From assembly GCA_012031215.1 (NCBI GenBank), contig JAAUUB010000008.1, positions 1-49,150 on the forward strand: a stretch of 49,150 nucleotides of DNA. Reading direction: 5' to 3'. Shown here piece after piece: positions 10,065-41,894 of the stretch (positions are counted from its first letter, which is position 1; each line of letters opens with the position of its first letter). Below the pieces are notes generated by a model, which worked only from the letters and a program-made list of their open reading frames with translations, searched no databases and was not told the DNA's origin. Origin of the DNA: Microscillaceae bacterium (lineage in GTDB: Bacteria; Bacteroidota; Bacteroidia; Cytophagales; Microscillaceae). The translations under genes and the position numbers were made by a program.

Positions 10065-12401
10065 TCAGACTTTTCCCTGGGGAATCTCAAATACAAACTG
10101 CACTCCTTGGCCGGGTTGGCTACGCACATTGAGCTTGCCCCCTAGCTTTTGCACAGTGAGGTTATAGACAATGTTCATGCCCAGGCCGGTGCCTCCGCCT
10201 TCGCGGTTGGTTGTAAAAAAAGGCTCATAGATTTTATCCAGCACTTCGGGGCTCATGCCATTGCCATCGTCGGAATAGGTCATTATCACCTGGCTCCCCC
10301 GCCCTTCCAGCCGGATGCGTATCTGGCCCTGGTCGCGGTTTTTGAAGCCGTGAATGAGTGAGTTCATCACCAGGTTGGTCAATATTTGAGAAAAAGCCCC
10401 CGCATAGCTATTAATGAATATATCCTCGGCTATCAATTCTATTTCGTAGGGTTTGTGCTTAAACTCCGGCTTCAGCGCCACGACTGTTTCCTGGAGGTAT
10501 TGCCTGAGGTTAAAGACCTGGCGGTTTTCGGTGCTTTGTCCTACGGCCACCATTTTGAAGCCCGAAACCAGGTCGGCGGCCCGGCGGAGGTTGGTCATCA
10601 AGATTTTATTTCCTTCCAAGACCATATCCATGTATTCTTTGAGGTCTTTGCGCTTCATTTGCCCACTTTGGAAAACCTTGTTAAACTCATTGGTTTTGCT
10701 GTCAAGGGTGGAGGCAGCCGTAACACAAATGCCGACGGGGGTATTGATTTCGTGGGCCACTCCGGCCACGAGCCCTCCCAGCGCGGCCATTTTTTCCGAT
10801 TCTACGAGTTGGGCCTGGGCCGCAGTCAGGATTTCGTAGGTTTCGGCATTGTTGATGGCAATGGTAGTATAAGCCGCCAAGGTTTTAATCATGTCAATAT
10901 GGCGGTGGTTATAGGCATTTTCCTGCTTACTGTAGATGCCTATGGCACCGATGGCTTCTTGGTCTTTGAGCAGCGGAAAATAAATCATGGCATTAAACAC
11001 CGGATTAATGGAATAGCTGTCCAGCCCTTCATATTGACTAAGGTCTTGTTTGGAACGCACCAGGATAGAGCGCCGGTTTTTGACACACCAGACGGCGGGG
11101 TTTTGGGTTTCGCGCATTGATATGCGAATTAGGGGCTTTTTGCGCTGGCTTTCGGTATTAAATTTATACTCCAGGTCGCCCGTTTCGGGGTGGTATTCCG
11201 TAACCCGGAAGCCATCGGCGGGCATCAGTTCACCCACATAGCCGTAGAGGGTATCGAAAATTTCTTTAAAATTGAGCGAGGAGGTGATGCTTTGCCCAAT
11301 GCGGCTCAGGATGGTGATGGTTTTATAGGATTTTTGCAAATCATCTTTTTGGGCTTCCAGTTCAAGGGCCTGTTTCTCGAGGTTGTCGCGCTGGGTCAGT
11401 ATTTCCTCCTGTTGTTGTTTGAGTTCTTCGTTTTTTTCTCCCAACTGGGCATTTTGCATTTCTATTTCGTGTTGTTGCAGGAGAATCTCCCGATTGAGGC
11501 GGTTCATTTCTTCATTCCGCTGTTCCAATTCGGCGGAGGATCGCTCCAGTTTCTCTTTCTGGGCGGTGATTTCTTCTTTTTGCTGCTTGATTTCAGTATT
11601 TTTCTGGATGAGTTCGGCTTTTTGCTGTTCGAGGGCTTTGTTGGCCCGCCGGGTTTGGGCCATTCCCCGCACCAGCAAGACGGCCAGAAAGCCCATCAGC
11701 ACCATGCCCCCAATCAAGAAATAAATAAACACGGCCTGCGCGTGGGCCTGGTCTTGCAAAGCCCGACGAATGATAAAGGCTTTGCTAAACTGGGTTCCGT
11801 CGGTAGTGCCCAATGAGCGATTGGCATATTGGATGGCCCGGTCTTCCTCTCCCTTTTCATAAAACACCTCGGCCAGAAGCCCGGCGGTGCTGTCTATTTC
11901 GGCGGCTGCCTGGTTGTTTTCAAAAATTTCCAGGGCTTTCTGATAATAAAAGACGGCTGAATCCAGGTAGGCCTTTTCCGAAGTATAAGAGGTGTTTCGA
12001 AAAAAAGCCCCAAAACTGCGATACGTGTCTGCTTTGCCCAGTTCATTTTTTTCTCGGCTATAAATCTGGATGGCCTGGCGATAAGCGGCCATCACCTCTT
12101 CGGCATTGGGATTGACCCGATAACTGACCCGGGCGACATTGACCCAGGCCTGCGCCTCTTCTTTGGGCTGGCGGGTGGCTTTGGCCAGTTGTACGGCTTG
12201 CTGGGCCATATTGAGCGATTGGGTGTAGCGTTGGTTAAGGCGATACTCGGCCGAAAGCTGGTTCAGCACTACGGCCTGCTGGCGGGCAGAAGAACGATTC
12301 AGTACCCGCAAAAGGCTGTCTAAGCGGCCGCATTGCGCCATTAACGATGCCCCCCCCAGAACATAAAAGAATATCAATAAACAAAAGGTGCGTTTCATCA
12401 T
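10065..12401 (-). CDS. TPR-GAF sensor histidine kinase
   Basis: The 778-residue protein has a signal peptide and then a periplasmic TPR-like region (about 25-215). One transmembrane helix follows (about 222-245), then a long coiled coil rich in Q/E/K (250-360) and a GAF domain (about 370-520). The kinase core has the H box VAGVAHEINTP (His 550) and HATPase motifs NLVMNSLIHGF, DDGNGMSPE and GGGTGLGMNIVYN. The TPR-TM-coiled-coil-kinase layout is common in Bacteroidota sensors. The coding sequence is intact, unlike many neighbours. The receiver-SpoIIE gene follows in the same direction. Input probably comes through protein contacts at the periplasmic TPRs and a cytoplasmic GAF ligand, and phosphotransfer to the downstream receiver is inferred from adjacency. 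Confidence 0.93.
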   Translation of the reverse strand: MMKRTFCLLIFFYVLGGASLMAQCGRLDSLLRVLNRSSARQQAVVLNQLSAEYRLNQRYTQSLNMAQQAVQLAKATRQPKEEAQAWVNVARVSYRVNPNAEEVMAAYRQAIQIYSREKNELGKADTYRSFGAFFRNTSYTSEKAYLDSAVFYYQKALEIFENNQAAAEIDSTAGLLAEVFYEKGEEDRAIQYANRSLGTTDGTQFSKAFIIRRALQDQAHAQAVFIYFLIGGMVLMGFLAVLLVRGMAQTRRANKALEQQKAELIQKNTEIKQQKEEITAQKEKLERSSAELEQRNEEMNRLNREILLQQHEIEMQNAQLGEKNEELKQQQEEILTQRDNLEKQALELEAQKDDLQKSYKTITILSRIGQSITSSLNFKEIFDTLYGYVGELMPADGFRVTEYHPETGDLEYKFNTESQRKKPLIRISMRETQNPAVWCVKNRRSILVRSKQDLSQYEGLDSYSINPVFNAMIYFPLLKDQEAIGAIGIYSKQENAYNHRHIDMIKTLAAYTTIAINNAETYEILTAAQAQLVESEKMAALGGLVAGVAHEINTPVGICVTAASTLDSKTNEFNKVFQSGQMKRKDLKEYMDMVLEGNKILMTNLRRAADLVSGFKMVAVGQSTENRQVFNLRQYLQETVVALKPEFKHKPYEIELIAEDIFINSYAGAFSQILTNLVMNSLIHGFKNRDQGQIRIRLEGRGSQVIMTYSDDGNGMSPEVLDKIYEPFFTTNREGGGTGLGMNIVYNLTVQKLGGKLNVRSQPGQGVQFVFEIPQGKV

Positions 12402-38635: not shown

Positions 38636-39846
38636 GTGAAATTACTTCACTCCCCAATCGCTCCTTTAGTTTCTATTTGGTTGGGGCTGGTATTGGCCAT
38701 TGACCTTAGGGCCTCGGTAGAAGCCACGCATTACACATCGCCCGATTCGCGTTTTTATTTCTGGGTAGCCGAAAATATGAAAGCGGGCAATGGGCTTTCT
38801 TCGCCTGATTATGCAGGCTATCCCTTTGACTCAGGTTCGCGTCTTTATATCTTTTCTACCTGGCCAGCAGGTTATCCGGCTTTCATTGCATTGGTAGCCT
38901 GGATAGGGCAAATTTCGCCGCTGGTGGCCTCCAAGGCCGTCAATCTGTTTTTTTTAGGGCTTTTGTTTGCCTTGTTTTATCGCTGGTGGGGCAAGGAAGC
39001 CTGGTTTCCGGCCCTCTATTTTTTTTCTACGGTAAACTGGAAGTGTATTCCTATACCTGGTCGGAAGGGCCTTTCCTTTTCTTTGTATGCTGGTTGGCAT
39101 TTTTACTGGCAAAAGACTCCCCCGAGCGACAAGATGCCAGGCTTTTCCTGAAACTCAGCCTGGCCCTCATTGCTTTGTTTATGCTTCGCTATGCCGGCTT
39201 GATTTACTTTTTCTTTGTCTTTCTGTTTTTTATGCGCTATATCCTGCAAAAACATTATGCCAAAGCTGGTCATTATTTTGTAGCAATGCTGGTGGGCAGT
39301 GCATTTGTTTTGGGCTATTTCTATCTTAATAAGTTGCATACCGGATACTACACGGGTATGAACCGCATTTATCCCGAAAAGGAGAGTTGGCTAGCTTATG
39401 GCTTCTATTTAGTTACCGGGTTGGCCAATGAGCTGTCGCTGGCCCGGAATTATTTCTATCGGGGCTATACCGACTGGCTTTATGGGGGGCTGATGGCATT
39501 ACAGGGTGGTTTGTTTTGGTATTTGTATCGGGAGCGCCAATTACTCAGCGATTGTTTCAAAAGACGGGAGGTGCGCGTGCGGCTGGGGATGGCCTTTTTC
39601 TATCTTGCTTTCACGATGGTCTTGCGCAAGATACAGCCCTTTGACCCTTTCAATTATCGCATCCTGGCTCCTTTCTCTACGCCCATTTATGTAGGCTTAA
39701 TGGCCGCAGTAGCCACGGCGGAGTCAAAAACTTATTTCAGAAAAATAAAACCCTGGGTATTGGCTTTTATGCTGGTGAGCTTGCTAATGAATTTGCCCAA
39801 GCAATTTTTGCTCAATATTTTACTCGGAGGGACGGGAAGCCAGTAA
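38636..39846 (+). CDS. Multi-pass glycosyltransferase-like membrane protein (frameshifted)
   Basis: A GTG start at 38636 opens a ~400-residue integral membrane protein once the eight-T run 39019-39026 is lengthened by one base (LYFFFYGKLEVYSYTWSEGP restored). About nine to ten hydrophobic helices are visible. The first extracytoplasmic loop has SPDSRFYFWVAENMKAG followed by STWPAGYPAFIALVAWI. These acidic and Trp/Pro-rich loop features resemble the GT39/GT83 (ArnT-like) or DUF2029/GT87 families, which move sugars from polyprenyl-phosphate donors to lipid or protein acceptors on the outer face of the inner membrane. The precise donor and acceptor are unknown. Its end overlaps nuoJ by 27 bp in convergent orientation. 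Confidence 0.82.
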
Positions 39847-40380
39847 TACGGAACCTACCAAAGCCACCAGGAGTAGCCAGGCGGCCAGCTCGAAAACCAG
39901 CAGATAGTCGGCCACCAACACTACGCCCAAGCCGGCCGTCGTATTTGTGGCTTGTGGCTTACCAGGGTTTGCCGCTTCTTGTATCCAGGTCATTTGCGCA
40001 AAATCGGCTTCCAGAATGAGATAAACCAAAGCCAGACCGGCCAAAACGGCAATGCCCAGGCCCAGTCCGAGATTTCTAAATCCCGCCATTGGTCCGGTTT
40101 CGGCCTTTTCTGCCTCGGGTGTGCCTGGGATTTTTGGACGATAAGTGAGCATAATGCCAAACAAAAGCAAAACCAAGACCCCGCCGATATAGATGACAAT
40201 TTGGGCAACGGCCACAAAATCAGCGTGATTGAGCACATACAAAGCCGCCAGCGATAAAAATGAAAAAAGTAAGCCCAGGGCCACGTACAAAATATTGCGG
40301 CTCAGGAGCATGGTCAGTGCCGAAAAAACCATCAGTCCGGCAAAACCATAAAAAGCCAGGATAAAGAGCCAATCGTTCAT
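39820..40380 (-). CDS. nuoJ: NADH-quinone oxidoreductase subunit J
   Basis: NuoJ is a membrane-arm subunit of respiratory complex I. The 186-residue protein has five hydrophobic helices (LFILAFYGFAGLMVFSALTML, VALGLLFSFLSLAALYVL, VAVAQIVIYIGGVLVLLLFGIML, LGLGLGIAVLAGLALVYLIL and VADYLLVFELAAWLLLVALVGSVLLA). The HADFVAVAQIVIYIGG region is the conserved third-helix pi-bulge element that couples quinone chemistry to proton pumping. It overlaps nuoI by 4 bp, indicating translational coupling. No nuoK follows, unlike in standard operons; the next gene is a convergent glycosyltransferase. Confidence 0.95.
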   Translation of the reverse strand: MNDWLFILAFYGFAGLMVFSALTMLLSRNILYVALGLLFSFLSLAALYVLNHADFVAVAQIVIYIGGVLVLLLFGIMLTYRPKIPGTPEAEKAETGPMAGFRNLGLGLGIAVLAGLALVYLILEADFAQMTWIQEAANPGKPQATNTTAGLGVVLVADYLLVFELAAWLLLVALVGSVLLASRPSE

Positions 40381-41261
40381 GCTTCCGGGTCTCCGTCTGT
40401 GGAGGGTTTAATTTTGGGGCGCATTGGCATTTTGGGCTTATGCTGAGGGGGCTTGGTGGCCGGTTTTTCTTCATGATTTGGGGAAGCCGGGCGGGGCTCG
40501 GTGGTGCTTGAAGGCAGCTTGGGCTTCATTTTTGGCACAAATTTGGGCTTGGCCGGAGAAGTGGGTAGTTCGGTGGGCGTTTCGTCCGTTTTGCCTTCAT
40601 CCGAAACAGTTGGGGTTTTCACCTTCGGCACAAACTTGGGCTTAGGCTTTGAAGTGGGAATCTCCGGGGCAGCCTTTTCGGCTTGCTGGGCAGCCTTTTC
40701 CTGCTGAAACTGCGCCAGCAAGACTTTTTTCTCATCGGCCTGGGCCGGGCTCAGATTGCCGAAGTGATAAACCATTTCGCGCACATCAAACTCGCTAAAG
40801 TCGTAGGCCCGGGTCATGGTGAGGCACTCTGTGGGGCAAACAGTAGTACAAAGGCCACAAAAACAACATTTGGCCATGTCAATATCAAACCGGGCCGCAT
40901 ACAAACGAATGGGGGAGCCATCGGAGGCTGTACTTACCTGCCCGGTGGCTTTTATAGGTTCTATCTCGATACAATCAACGGGGCAAATCTTGGCGCATTT
41001 GTCGCAAACAATGCAATCATCCATCTCATTGTGCAGGCGATAGCGCCCATGGTCAGGAACGGGCAGGGCCTCATAAGGATAACCCAGGGTAACGATACCC
41101 GTTTCTTGCGCAAAATAAGTGGAATCATCCACATTGATGGGCCGCCGCCGCCGGGAAGCCTGAAAAAAATGCCGGATAGAAATTCGCAAACCCAGCCAGG
41201 CCGTGCGAATGCCCTGAGCCAAATGCCCCAGGTAACTAAGAGAAGAACCTTGAGATGCCAT
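40377..41261 (-). CDS. nuoI: NADH-quinone oxidoreductase subunit I with long C-terminal tail
   Basis: This 294-residue protein starts at ATG 41261. The first 200 residues are a standard NuoI, with two ferredoxin-type 4Fe-4S sites CIVCDKCAKICP and CCFCGLCTTVCP that carry clusters N6a and N6b, and an amphipathic N-terminus. A low-complexity tail of about 90 residues follows, rich in Lys, Pro and Glu, with the KPKFVPKVK/KPKFVPKMK repeat and a KPKMPMRPKIK variant. Usual bacterial NuoI is 160-230 residues, so the tail is extra. Its role is unknown. nuoI and nuoJ are coupled by a 4-bp overlap, but nuoH is not upstream; the InsA-like gene is. Confidence 0.95.
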   Translation of the reverse strand: MASQGSSLSYLGHLAQGIRTAWLGLRISIRHFFQASRRRRPINVDDSTYFAQETGIVTLGYPYEALPVPDHGRYRLHNEMDDCIVCDKCAKICPVDCIEIEPIKATGQVSTASDGSPIRLYAARFDIDMAKCCFCGLCTTVCPTECLTMTRAYDFSEFDVREMVYHFGNLSPAQADEKKVLLAQFQQEKAAQQAEKAAPEIPTSKPKPKFVPKVKTPTVSDEGKTDETPTELPTSPAKPKFVPKMKPKLPSSTTEPRPASPNHEEKPATKPPQHKPKMPMRPKIKPSTDGDPEA

Positions 41262-41347
41262 GTTTATCAATTGCGTAGGTCTAAATTAGGCCAAAAAAGC
41301 GAAAAACAAAGCCAAAGCTGTTCTTTTTAGGAAAAAAAGGCGCGGAT

Positions 41348-41767
41348 TTATTCTCGGAAACGTTCCCATTTTATCATCATGAATTTATCGCCCAGCTCAG
41401 TTATAATCATTCCAGAGCCTTTGAGCTGGTCGGATTTGGCCAGGTATTCTACCAGTTCGTTATGATTGAGGATTTTATAAGTAGGGTGGTATTCCGAGTT
41501 TTCAGGTGCCTGGATACGATATTTCTTCACCCAGTTCATCACCGAAACGTGGCTCACCCCCAGCAAGCGCTCTATTTCGCGGTAGCTAATGCCCTCTATG
41601 TAAAGTTGTAAAGCTTTGATGACATAATAATTGTCAATTTGCTTGCCCAGTTTATTGACCGTGAAGTAATAATCACAGGTTTTGCAACGATAGCGTTGCC
41701 GTTCCCGGATAATACCGCTTTTGGTAGCTTTATCGCTCCCGCATTTTGGGCAAACAGGATGTTTCAT
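41348..41767 (-). CDS. IS1 InsA-like zinc-ribbon/HTH DNA-binding protein
   Basis: The 139-residue protein has an N-terminal zinc ribbon with four Cys (CPKCGSDKATKSG and YRCKTCDYYFT) matching the InsA N-terminal domain of IS1-type transposases. A helix-turn-helix follows (YIEGISYREIERLLGVSHVSVMNWVKKY). The last ~50 residues (MIITELGDKFMMIKWERF) do not look like a transposase catalytic domain and have no DDE residues. No InsB frame, IS1 terminal repeats or target duplication is visible nearby. This suggests a stand-alone, perhaps domesticated, transcription regulator; a transposon remnant is the alternative. It has a very close -7 box (41772-41779). Confidence 0.85.
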   Translation of the reverse strand: MKHPVCPKCGSDKATKSGIIRERQRYRCKTCDYYFTVNKLGKQIDNYYVIKALQLYIEGISYREIERLLGVSHVSVMNWVKKYRIQAPENSEYHPTYKILNHNELVEYLAKSDQLKGSGMIITELGDKFMMIKWERFRE

Positions 41768-41771
41768 AGTT

Positions 41772-41779
41772 CAAATATA
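41772..41779 (-). promoter_or_regulatory. -7 element (TATATTTG) 4 bp before the InsA-like start codon
   Basis: On the minus strand the sequence is TATATTTG-AACT-ATG, an exact TAnnTTTG match whose end is 4 bp from the start codon. The same spacing and -7 sequence occur at 12590-12602. No well-placed -33 TTTG was found. Confidence 0.6.
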
Positions 41780-41870
41780 AATATTTTTTCAGGTATTTTT
41801 CTTTGCATCGCGTGCTGCGTGCCGGATTTTTTAGCCTGTTGGGGTATTCAGTACATTTCAAAAAAGGCAC

Positions 41871-41878
41871 TATTTTTG
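41871..41878 (+). promoter_or_regulatory. -7 element (TATTTTTG) for the AI-2E family gene
   Basis: TATTTTTG matches TAnnTTTG, 16 bp upstream of the ATG at 41895. It predicts a leader of roughly 9 bases. Confidence 0.45.
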
Positions 41879-41894
41879 GAAAAAATGTGTGCGT

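Follow-up and report, generated by a model that had tools for sequence, protein, structure and literature searches.

Why would a Microscillaceae bacterium keep an intact gene for an IS1 InsA-like protein, followed by no transposase, directly ahead of nuoI? In the 49,150-nucleotide stretch of DNA that we analysed (the window), this gene, for which we use the label REG (InsA-derived regulator gene), lies on the minus strand at positions 41348-41767. The preliminary description's intact InsA-like open reading frame is borne out by family matches, orthologues and alignment: it starts with ATG and encodes 139 amino acids. A zinc ribbon (residues 6-31, positions 41675-41752) is followed by a helix-turn-helix (HTH; residues 46-82, 41522-41632) and a C-terminal beta-alpha-beta-beta segment (residues 93-136, 41360-41491), all on the minus strand. 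Both DNA-binding elements are kept, as the preliminary description had it: the cysteines C6, C9, C28 and C31 and most of the HTH are invariant across 81 aligned sequences, the zinc domain matches NF050000 at 37.2 bits (cut-off 28), and HTH_28 and HTH_23 both score over their cut-offs. The match to NF033558 (E 2.5e-21, 76.6 bits) covers residues 6-114 only and falls below its cut-off of 100. In the C-terminal segment, G126, D127, K128 and W134 are likewise invariant.

The position reported earlier, just upstream of the nuoI-nuoJ pair and in the same orientation, is confirmed within the window. The stop codon of REG lies 77-86 nt ahead of nuoI (40377-41270) with no intervening gene, and nuoJ (39820-40380) follows, both being minus-strand open reading frames with family matches. 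At its C-terminus, the window NuoI is lengthened by a long Lys/Pro-rich stretch (40377-40830, minus strand) with repeats like PKPKFVPKxK, through which its closest relative, from genome G006, also aligns. On the side opposite nuoI, REG adjoins a divergent AI-2E-type gene across an intergenic region (41768-41888). Of the dedicated promoter that had been proposed, a candidate -7-like box remains: a sigma-70 scan of the REG strand gave no promoter, and TATATTTG (41772-41779, minus strand), 4 nt before the REG ATG, fits TAnnTTTG, which we take to be the Bacteroidota -7 consensus. Such a box occurs in the last 30 nt of 1.5% of shuffles, and no clear -33 box accompanies this one, leaving the promoter unconfirmed.

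REG could be no more than the remains of an IS1 element, or a mobile accessory gene, as its similarity of up to about 40% to IS1 transposases might suggest, or it could be the transcription factor of the adjoining nuoI-nuoJ pair, with which it shares a strand and a short, gene-free junction. The preliminary description had taken many identical copies with flanking repeats as a sign against exaptation; a search of the window genome instead gave one copy of REG, with the next match at E 0.3, and there are no terminal inverted repeats around it. Nor does an insB frame or a DDE domain follow it in the window, where nuoI comes next, in agreement with the earlier statement that InsB, the DDE domain and terminal repeats are missing. 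The Asp of the DEM motif, which we take to be a catalytic residue of IS1, is absent from the aligned position of REG. In the window gene, runs of A never exceed four, and 11 of 81 regulator genes contain the slippery AAAAAAC. Of 72,556 plasmid records, 22 match REG, the best being IS1 transposases at 40.5% identity or less, and none reaches 60%. Together with its full length, purifying selection and recurrent neighbourhood, these features make a remnant or mobile gene scarcely conceivable. A role at nuoI is very improbable as well. A NuoI match is present in 11 of 14 genomes with REG, and in all 10 besides the window the two genes are separated, either by more than 50 kb or by being assigned to different contigs, in a test that contig breaks limit in the fragmented genomes. 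The link implied by the preliminary description thus finds no support, with REG adjoining nuoI in 0 of 10 relatives that have both; the conserved partners of REG are acetate-type genes, and its position at nuoI is probably a private rearrangement of the window lineage. We also considered the AI-2E-type gene as a partner and rejected it, since it adjoins REG in none of 12 other genomes with a match, the nearest case being about 13 kb away in G026.

The genes that do accompany REG form an acetate-type module. Among 13 relatives bearing REG, it is linked to porin, transporter or acetyl-CoA synthetase (Acs) genes in 12, which answers the synteny question raised earlier, and in 10 the porin is encoded on the REG strand no more than 1 kb away. 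G043 has the order REG, MFS transporter, Acs; in G046 Acs is next to REG; in G038 REG sits on a separate contig. We extended this comparison to named loci from a species collection, using the best 80 of at least 544 stretches that encode a REG relative (67-76% identical); this set is rich in Flavobacterium (16) and Pontibacter (11) and includes Hymenobacter (8). After clustering of their open reading frames, with five loci that have less than 3.5 kb downstream set aside, 75 remained. On the same strand 3' of REG, 70 of these have the porin, 71 a transporter (37 a symporter and 34 an MFS protein) and 69 both; an SLC5-type histidine kinase is found in 64, Acs in 7, and one or the other in 69, counts that miss farther genes because the loci span only 6 kb. 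Neither porin nor transporter is present at three loci, of which L082 has none of the genes whereas L093 and L097 have a kinase, a response regulator and Acs. The symporter belongs to TIGR03648 (VC_2705, 866.6 bits), the small subunit to TIGR03647 (119.3 bits) and the acetate-CoA ligase to TIGR02188 (965.9 bits); the kinase matches HisKA and HATPase over their cut-offs and SSF (PF00474) below it, the MFS protein matches TIGR00883 below cut-off, and the sole match of the porin, to ExtI, is likewise below cut-off. Judged from these family names and the linkage to Acs, the substrate of the module is presumably of the acetate type. Five genomes (G003, G007, G012, G013 and G017) have the symporter and no full-length REG, so the module does not require REG. 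One contig labelled as a Rickettsiales MAG (L104) carries REG with a Bacteroidota-type module and is probably a mislabelled bin.

Matches to REG at E 0.001 or better occur in 26 of 57 genomes (the window genome and 56 relatives), and 13 of the 56 encode an orthologue over its full length (identity 55-78%), the other matches being weaker and IS1-like. In an even sample of 395 genomes of the phylum, 32 match at E 1e-20; 30 of them, the window included, have one match each below E 1e-50, and the other two matches contain stops and resemble IS1. The sporadic distribution that the preliminary description had also counted against exaptation is therefore seen in part: occurrence is patchy between lineages (30 of 395 genomes), but Pontibacter and Hymenobacter form supported tree groups. 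The dN/dS ratio suggested earlier has a median of 0.029 and a maximum of 0.25 in the 76 of 3240 REG pairs with usable dS, dS being saturated between the window REG and its nearest sequences; these values indicate that REG orthologues are under purifying selection. A gene tree parts REG from IS1 with a support of 91, built from few columns and with very long IS1 branches, and does not fix the nearest relative of the window gene. Because the tree is poorly resolved and places two same-order genomes with Flavobacterium, vertical descent is not established. In two genomes of one genus (G037 and G052; L019 and L020) we noticed short stand-alone InsA-like matches, possibly another domestication; that in L019 is a 93-amino-acid open reading frame, 41% identical to REG over residues 5-84, beside a LytS-like kinase recognised by eye.

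Upstream of REG we found a tandem, operator-like element. With a weight matrix, at least one TTGCTAAATTnnTATA site is detected in 78 of 80 loci (0.4% of single-base shuffles) and two sites in 68 of 80, spaced 19 bp in all 68 (0% of shuffles). A scan of the complete loci (933 kb, score above 9) returned 146 plus-strand sites upstream of REG, 39 sites between REG and the next module gene, 32 of these inverted, and 37 inside other open reading frames. Since the matrix was trained on the same upstream sequences, scans of whole genomes for the tandem are the more independent tests. In 21 chosen genomes, allowing two mismatches, the tandem occurs in 17 genomes at 25 places, of which 18 are at REG or the module and seven, each with two mismatches, elsewhere; the reversed-pattern control gave two matches, both in G024. 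Among the relatives, 11 of 13 have an upstream site at REG. Allowing one mismatch in the 395-genome sample, the tandem is present in 23 genomes, once in each, and every one of these belongs to the 30 that have REG; none of the 365 genomes without REG has it, and the reversed pattern is found in 1 of 395. In 21 of the 23 it stands directly upstream of REG, in G024 between REG and the porin, and in G315 at a contig edge. Fisher's exact test of the co-occurrence gives 2e-31, which overstates the case because the genomes are related. Seven REG genomes lack the tandem at this threshold (G000, which is the window genome, G026, G043, G421, G437, G350 and G340); five have weaker or single sites and the window none, and the contig of G340 ends 46 nt upstream of REG. 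In G020, REG adjoins the porin without any site.

The element also has a counterpart on the other side of the gene. An inverted site (score above 5, minus strand) lies within 130 nt after the REG stop codon in 34 of 79 loci, L087 being too short; plus-strand sites are present in 7 of the 79, and shuffles give about 6%. The inverted site is 3-28 nt from the stop codon in 26 of the 34, and several other loci have, by eye, an inverted element with a spacer shortened by one or two bases. In 35 of 80 loci, compared with 8 in shuffles, the 100 nt upstream of REG contain a TAnnTTTG box, mostly 36-76 nt before the start; these boxes fall among the sites, which fits promoter occlusion. It is likely, as judged from the sequence patterns, that the tandem is bound by the REG protein. 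Among the papers listed by literature searches, which for several queries were the leading matches, none concerned a domesticated InsA or such an operator.

We considered two further explanations, one for the tandem and one for the window gene. The tandem could be the site of a CrbR-like response regulator paired with the SLC5-histidine kinase, REG being a mere passenger: the kinase is present in 28 of 30 REG genomes, and CrbR regulates acs and actP in Gammaproteobacteria according to passages of PMC5715377. This reading is quite unlikely. The kinase occurs in 41 of the 395 genomes, and none of the 13 that lack REG has the tandem, although all 13 belong to other classes and the missing tandem may reflect only distance. 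The CrbR motif given in those passages is a different, imperfect inverted repeat (PMC5715377), and the TTGCTAAATTnnTATA half-site coincides with the ends of certain IS1 elements, which are what InsA-type DNA-binding domains naturally recognise. Alternatively, REG in the window could be a decaying leftover, cut off from operator and module. Its upstream region, which lacks the tandem common to most orthologues, has a best matrix score of -12, and no site scores above 9 in the 3.4-kb locus. The whole assembly contains no tandem at up to two mismatches. Half-sites with one mismatch number just three, each standing alone: the first overlaps open frames on either strand, the second is near a TIGR00730-like gene (by eye) and the third is in no long frame, with no acetate genes seen around the latter two. 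A half-site at window position 11339 (score 15) falls within the coding sequence of a histidine kinase, and we took it as chance. The module's porin is split over three frames (G000:C168:27517-28843), and the SLC5-kinase match contains stops (G000:C114:11110-12375). We nevertheless think decay unlikely: the window REG is intact with all invariant residues, the symporter frame is open, and the short indels in porin and kinase may be sequencing errors. Moreover, the module on contig C168 comprises porin, small subunit, symporter and Acs (small subunit and Acs by eye), and this contig stops some 58 nt short of the porin ATG, which would hide an operator located there.

A regulator displaced from operators that persist, which is the arrangement our preferred reading of REG as a working regulator would require in the window genome, can be observed in G038. 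Here REG is on contig C27, and the tandem remains before the porin on C29, together with an inverted site recognised by eye (TTGTTAATAGTATAG when reversed, below the matrix threshold), with no open stretch longer than 44 codons between the two. In L082, the sister of G038 in the tree (support 100), REG is likewise away from the module and without sites. The G038 arrangement may be what has happened in the window genome.

The similarity of the half-site to IS1 ends bears on where the element came from. Two G010 copies define IS1 ends as TTGTTAATTTTGTATAG (left) and TTGTTAAAATAGTATAG (right, reversed), and we scored 25 IS1 elements with the operator matrix. The Tenacibaculum IS1 (two near-copies) scores 22.0 at its left and 10.2 at its right end; the G010 IS1 scores 13.0-14.8 at the left end in 7 of 7 copies and 14.3 at the right in 4 of 5 with right-hand sequence; and the G016 IS1 scores 14.4 and 9.6, respectively. 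Both ends thus match in three Bacteroidota types, and the right end only in one proteobacterial type (Methylobacter; 2.5 left, 12.2 right). Near the gene start or right end, scores stay below 9 in the G015, G018, G053, Hymenobacter, Emticicia, Aureispira, archaeal, cyanobacterial and Methylobacterium elements, Microcystis (9.5) excepted; in one copy from G015, a site scoring 12.4 is seen 130 nt ahead of the gene, where it probably lies beyond the element itself. By identity, the archaeal IS1 is the closest to REG (40.5%); its ends do not match. A shared IS1 promoter was rejected as the cause of the likeness, since several right ends match too. In the G010 copies (L018, L029 and L212-L216), a second TTGCAAAA...TTACTA stretch lies slightly inside the left terminal repeat; it may be a forerunner of the tandem. 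With a half-site like IS1 ends and an inverted copy at the place of the right end, REG and its operators look like a fossil IS1. We tentatively suggest, with slightly less than even confidence, that such an element became a control unit. The left end would have been doubled to the tandem, insA and the inverted right end kept and insB lost, the ends turning into operators and the zero-frame tail into the conserved C-terminal segment. The unit would have taken over acetate-type uptake in many Bacteroidota, and REG would later have moved in at least two lineages, now acting in trans.

The AlphaFold2 model of REG (mean pLDDT 84, pTM 0.59) predicts a zinc ribbon, a three-helix HTH (46-57, 62-69 and 73-82) and the beta-alpha-beta-beta segment, in this order. 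Its HTH part resembles those of GcrA, Pax and IstA with Z of 6-6.7, values that can reflect just a common arrangement; most VIA-align matches are confined to the HTH, and on the C-terminal part KCTD5 alone aligns (Z about 5). In the comparison of the whole chain with Lrp/AsnC and other solved regulator folds, the best Foldseek match has an E of 0.04. In IS1, the zero-frame tail of InsA overlaps insB out of frame. A REG profile aligned with zero-frame InsA proteins, the broken copy L017 being left out, over 138 columns (E 9e-38). The C-terminal part alone scores 19.5 against the InsA zero-frame tail, a modest similarity that 1 of 200 column shuffles attains (shuffle median 9.6), or 7 of 200 when just the tail part is taken; against the InsAB' frame it scores 8.8, less than that median. 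High in one frame and low in the other, these scores are suggestive of a C-terminal segment derived from the zero-frame tail of InsA, and not from the catalytic domain. The C-terminus had been called novel, which is only partly right: it is conserved among orthologues and aligns weakly with that tail.

Single copy, spread over several families, purifying selection, kept neighbourhood and a near-unique operator-like element resembling IS1 ends uphold the exapted InsA-type transcription factor of the preliminary description, and REG as a domesticated InsA-type regulator is strongly supported. We consider it quite probable that this regulator binds tandem and inverted IS1-end-like sites and represses itself and acetate-type uptake genes until an organic-acid signal arrives, a confidence slightly lowered because no more than three Bacteroidota IS1 types have matching ends and the gene tree does not demonstrate vertical descent. 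On this reading, REG is a conserved zero-frame InsA derivative with zinc ribbon and HTH and no catalytic domain. In Bacteroidota it normally stands directly before genes for an outer-membrane porin, for either an MHS-type MFS transporter or a VC_2705-family sodium symporter with its TIGR03647 small subunit, for an SLC5-histidine kinase and for acetyl-CoA synthetase. Its protein would bind the tandem TTGCTAAATTnnTATA half-sites, spaced by 19 bp, over the REG promoter and the inverted copy before the next gene, and would repress both genes until a signal of organic-acid metabolism, perhaps sensed by the C-terminal segment, releases them. In the window organism, REG would have moved beside nuoI without its operators and would act in trans on the C168 module. 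REG is thus probably a switch of acetate-type uptake genes; that it represses them, rather than activates them, is plausible by analogy with InsA. We propose that REG is a transcriptional regulator so far missing for the acetate-type uptake genes of Bacteroidota. A transposon repressor and terminal repeats domesticated together make a ready-made regulator-operator pair and a simple route to new regulation; such co-domestication is much discussed for eukaryotes, and the present case would place it in culturable bacteria, with named operator, targets and controls.

The closest known system is InsA of IS1, which shares the zinc ribbon and HTH with REG. As passages of PMC12428005 describe, InsA uses its zinc finger and HTH to bind the IS1 inverted repeats and acts as a repressor of the insA promoter, which overlaps the left repeat. 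REG differs in being a single-copy gene without insB, without a -1 frameshift to a DDE transposase and in no mobile element; its orthologues keep the repeats only as tandem and inverted operator-like sites, and it recurs within a metabolic cluster. The IS1/IS1595 N-terminal zinc-binding domain proteins of NF050000 include REG by its domain match, but the family name is silent on a regulatory role, and proteins like REG are now probably labelled transposase-like zinc-binding protein. With the CrbS/CrbR system of Vibrio and Pseudomonas, as described in passages of PMC5715377, the Bacteroidota module shares the combination of an SLC5-histidine kinase, an acetate-type symporter and acetyl-CoA synthetase. 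It differs in adding an IS1-derived regulator, and in carrying a tandem direct repeat where CrbR has an inverted one (PMC5715377).
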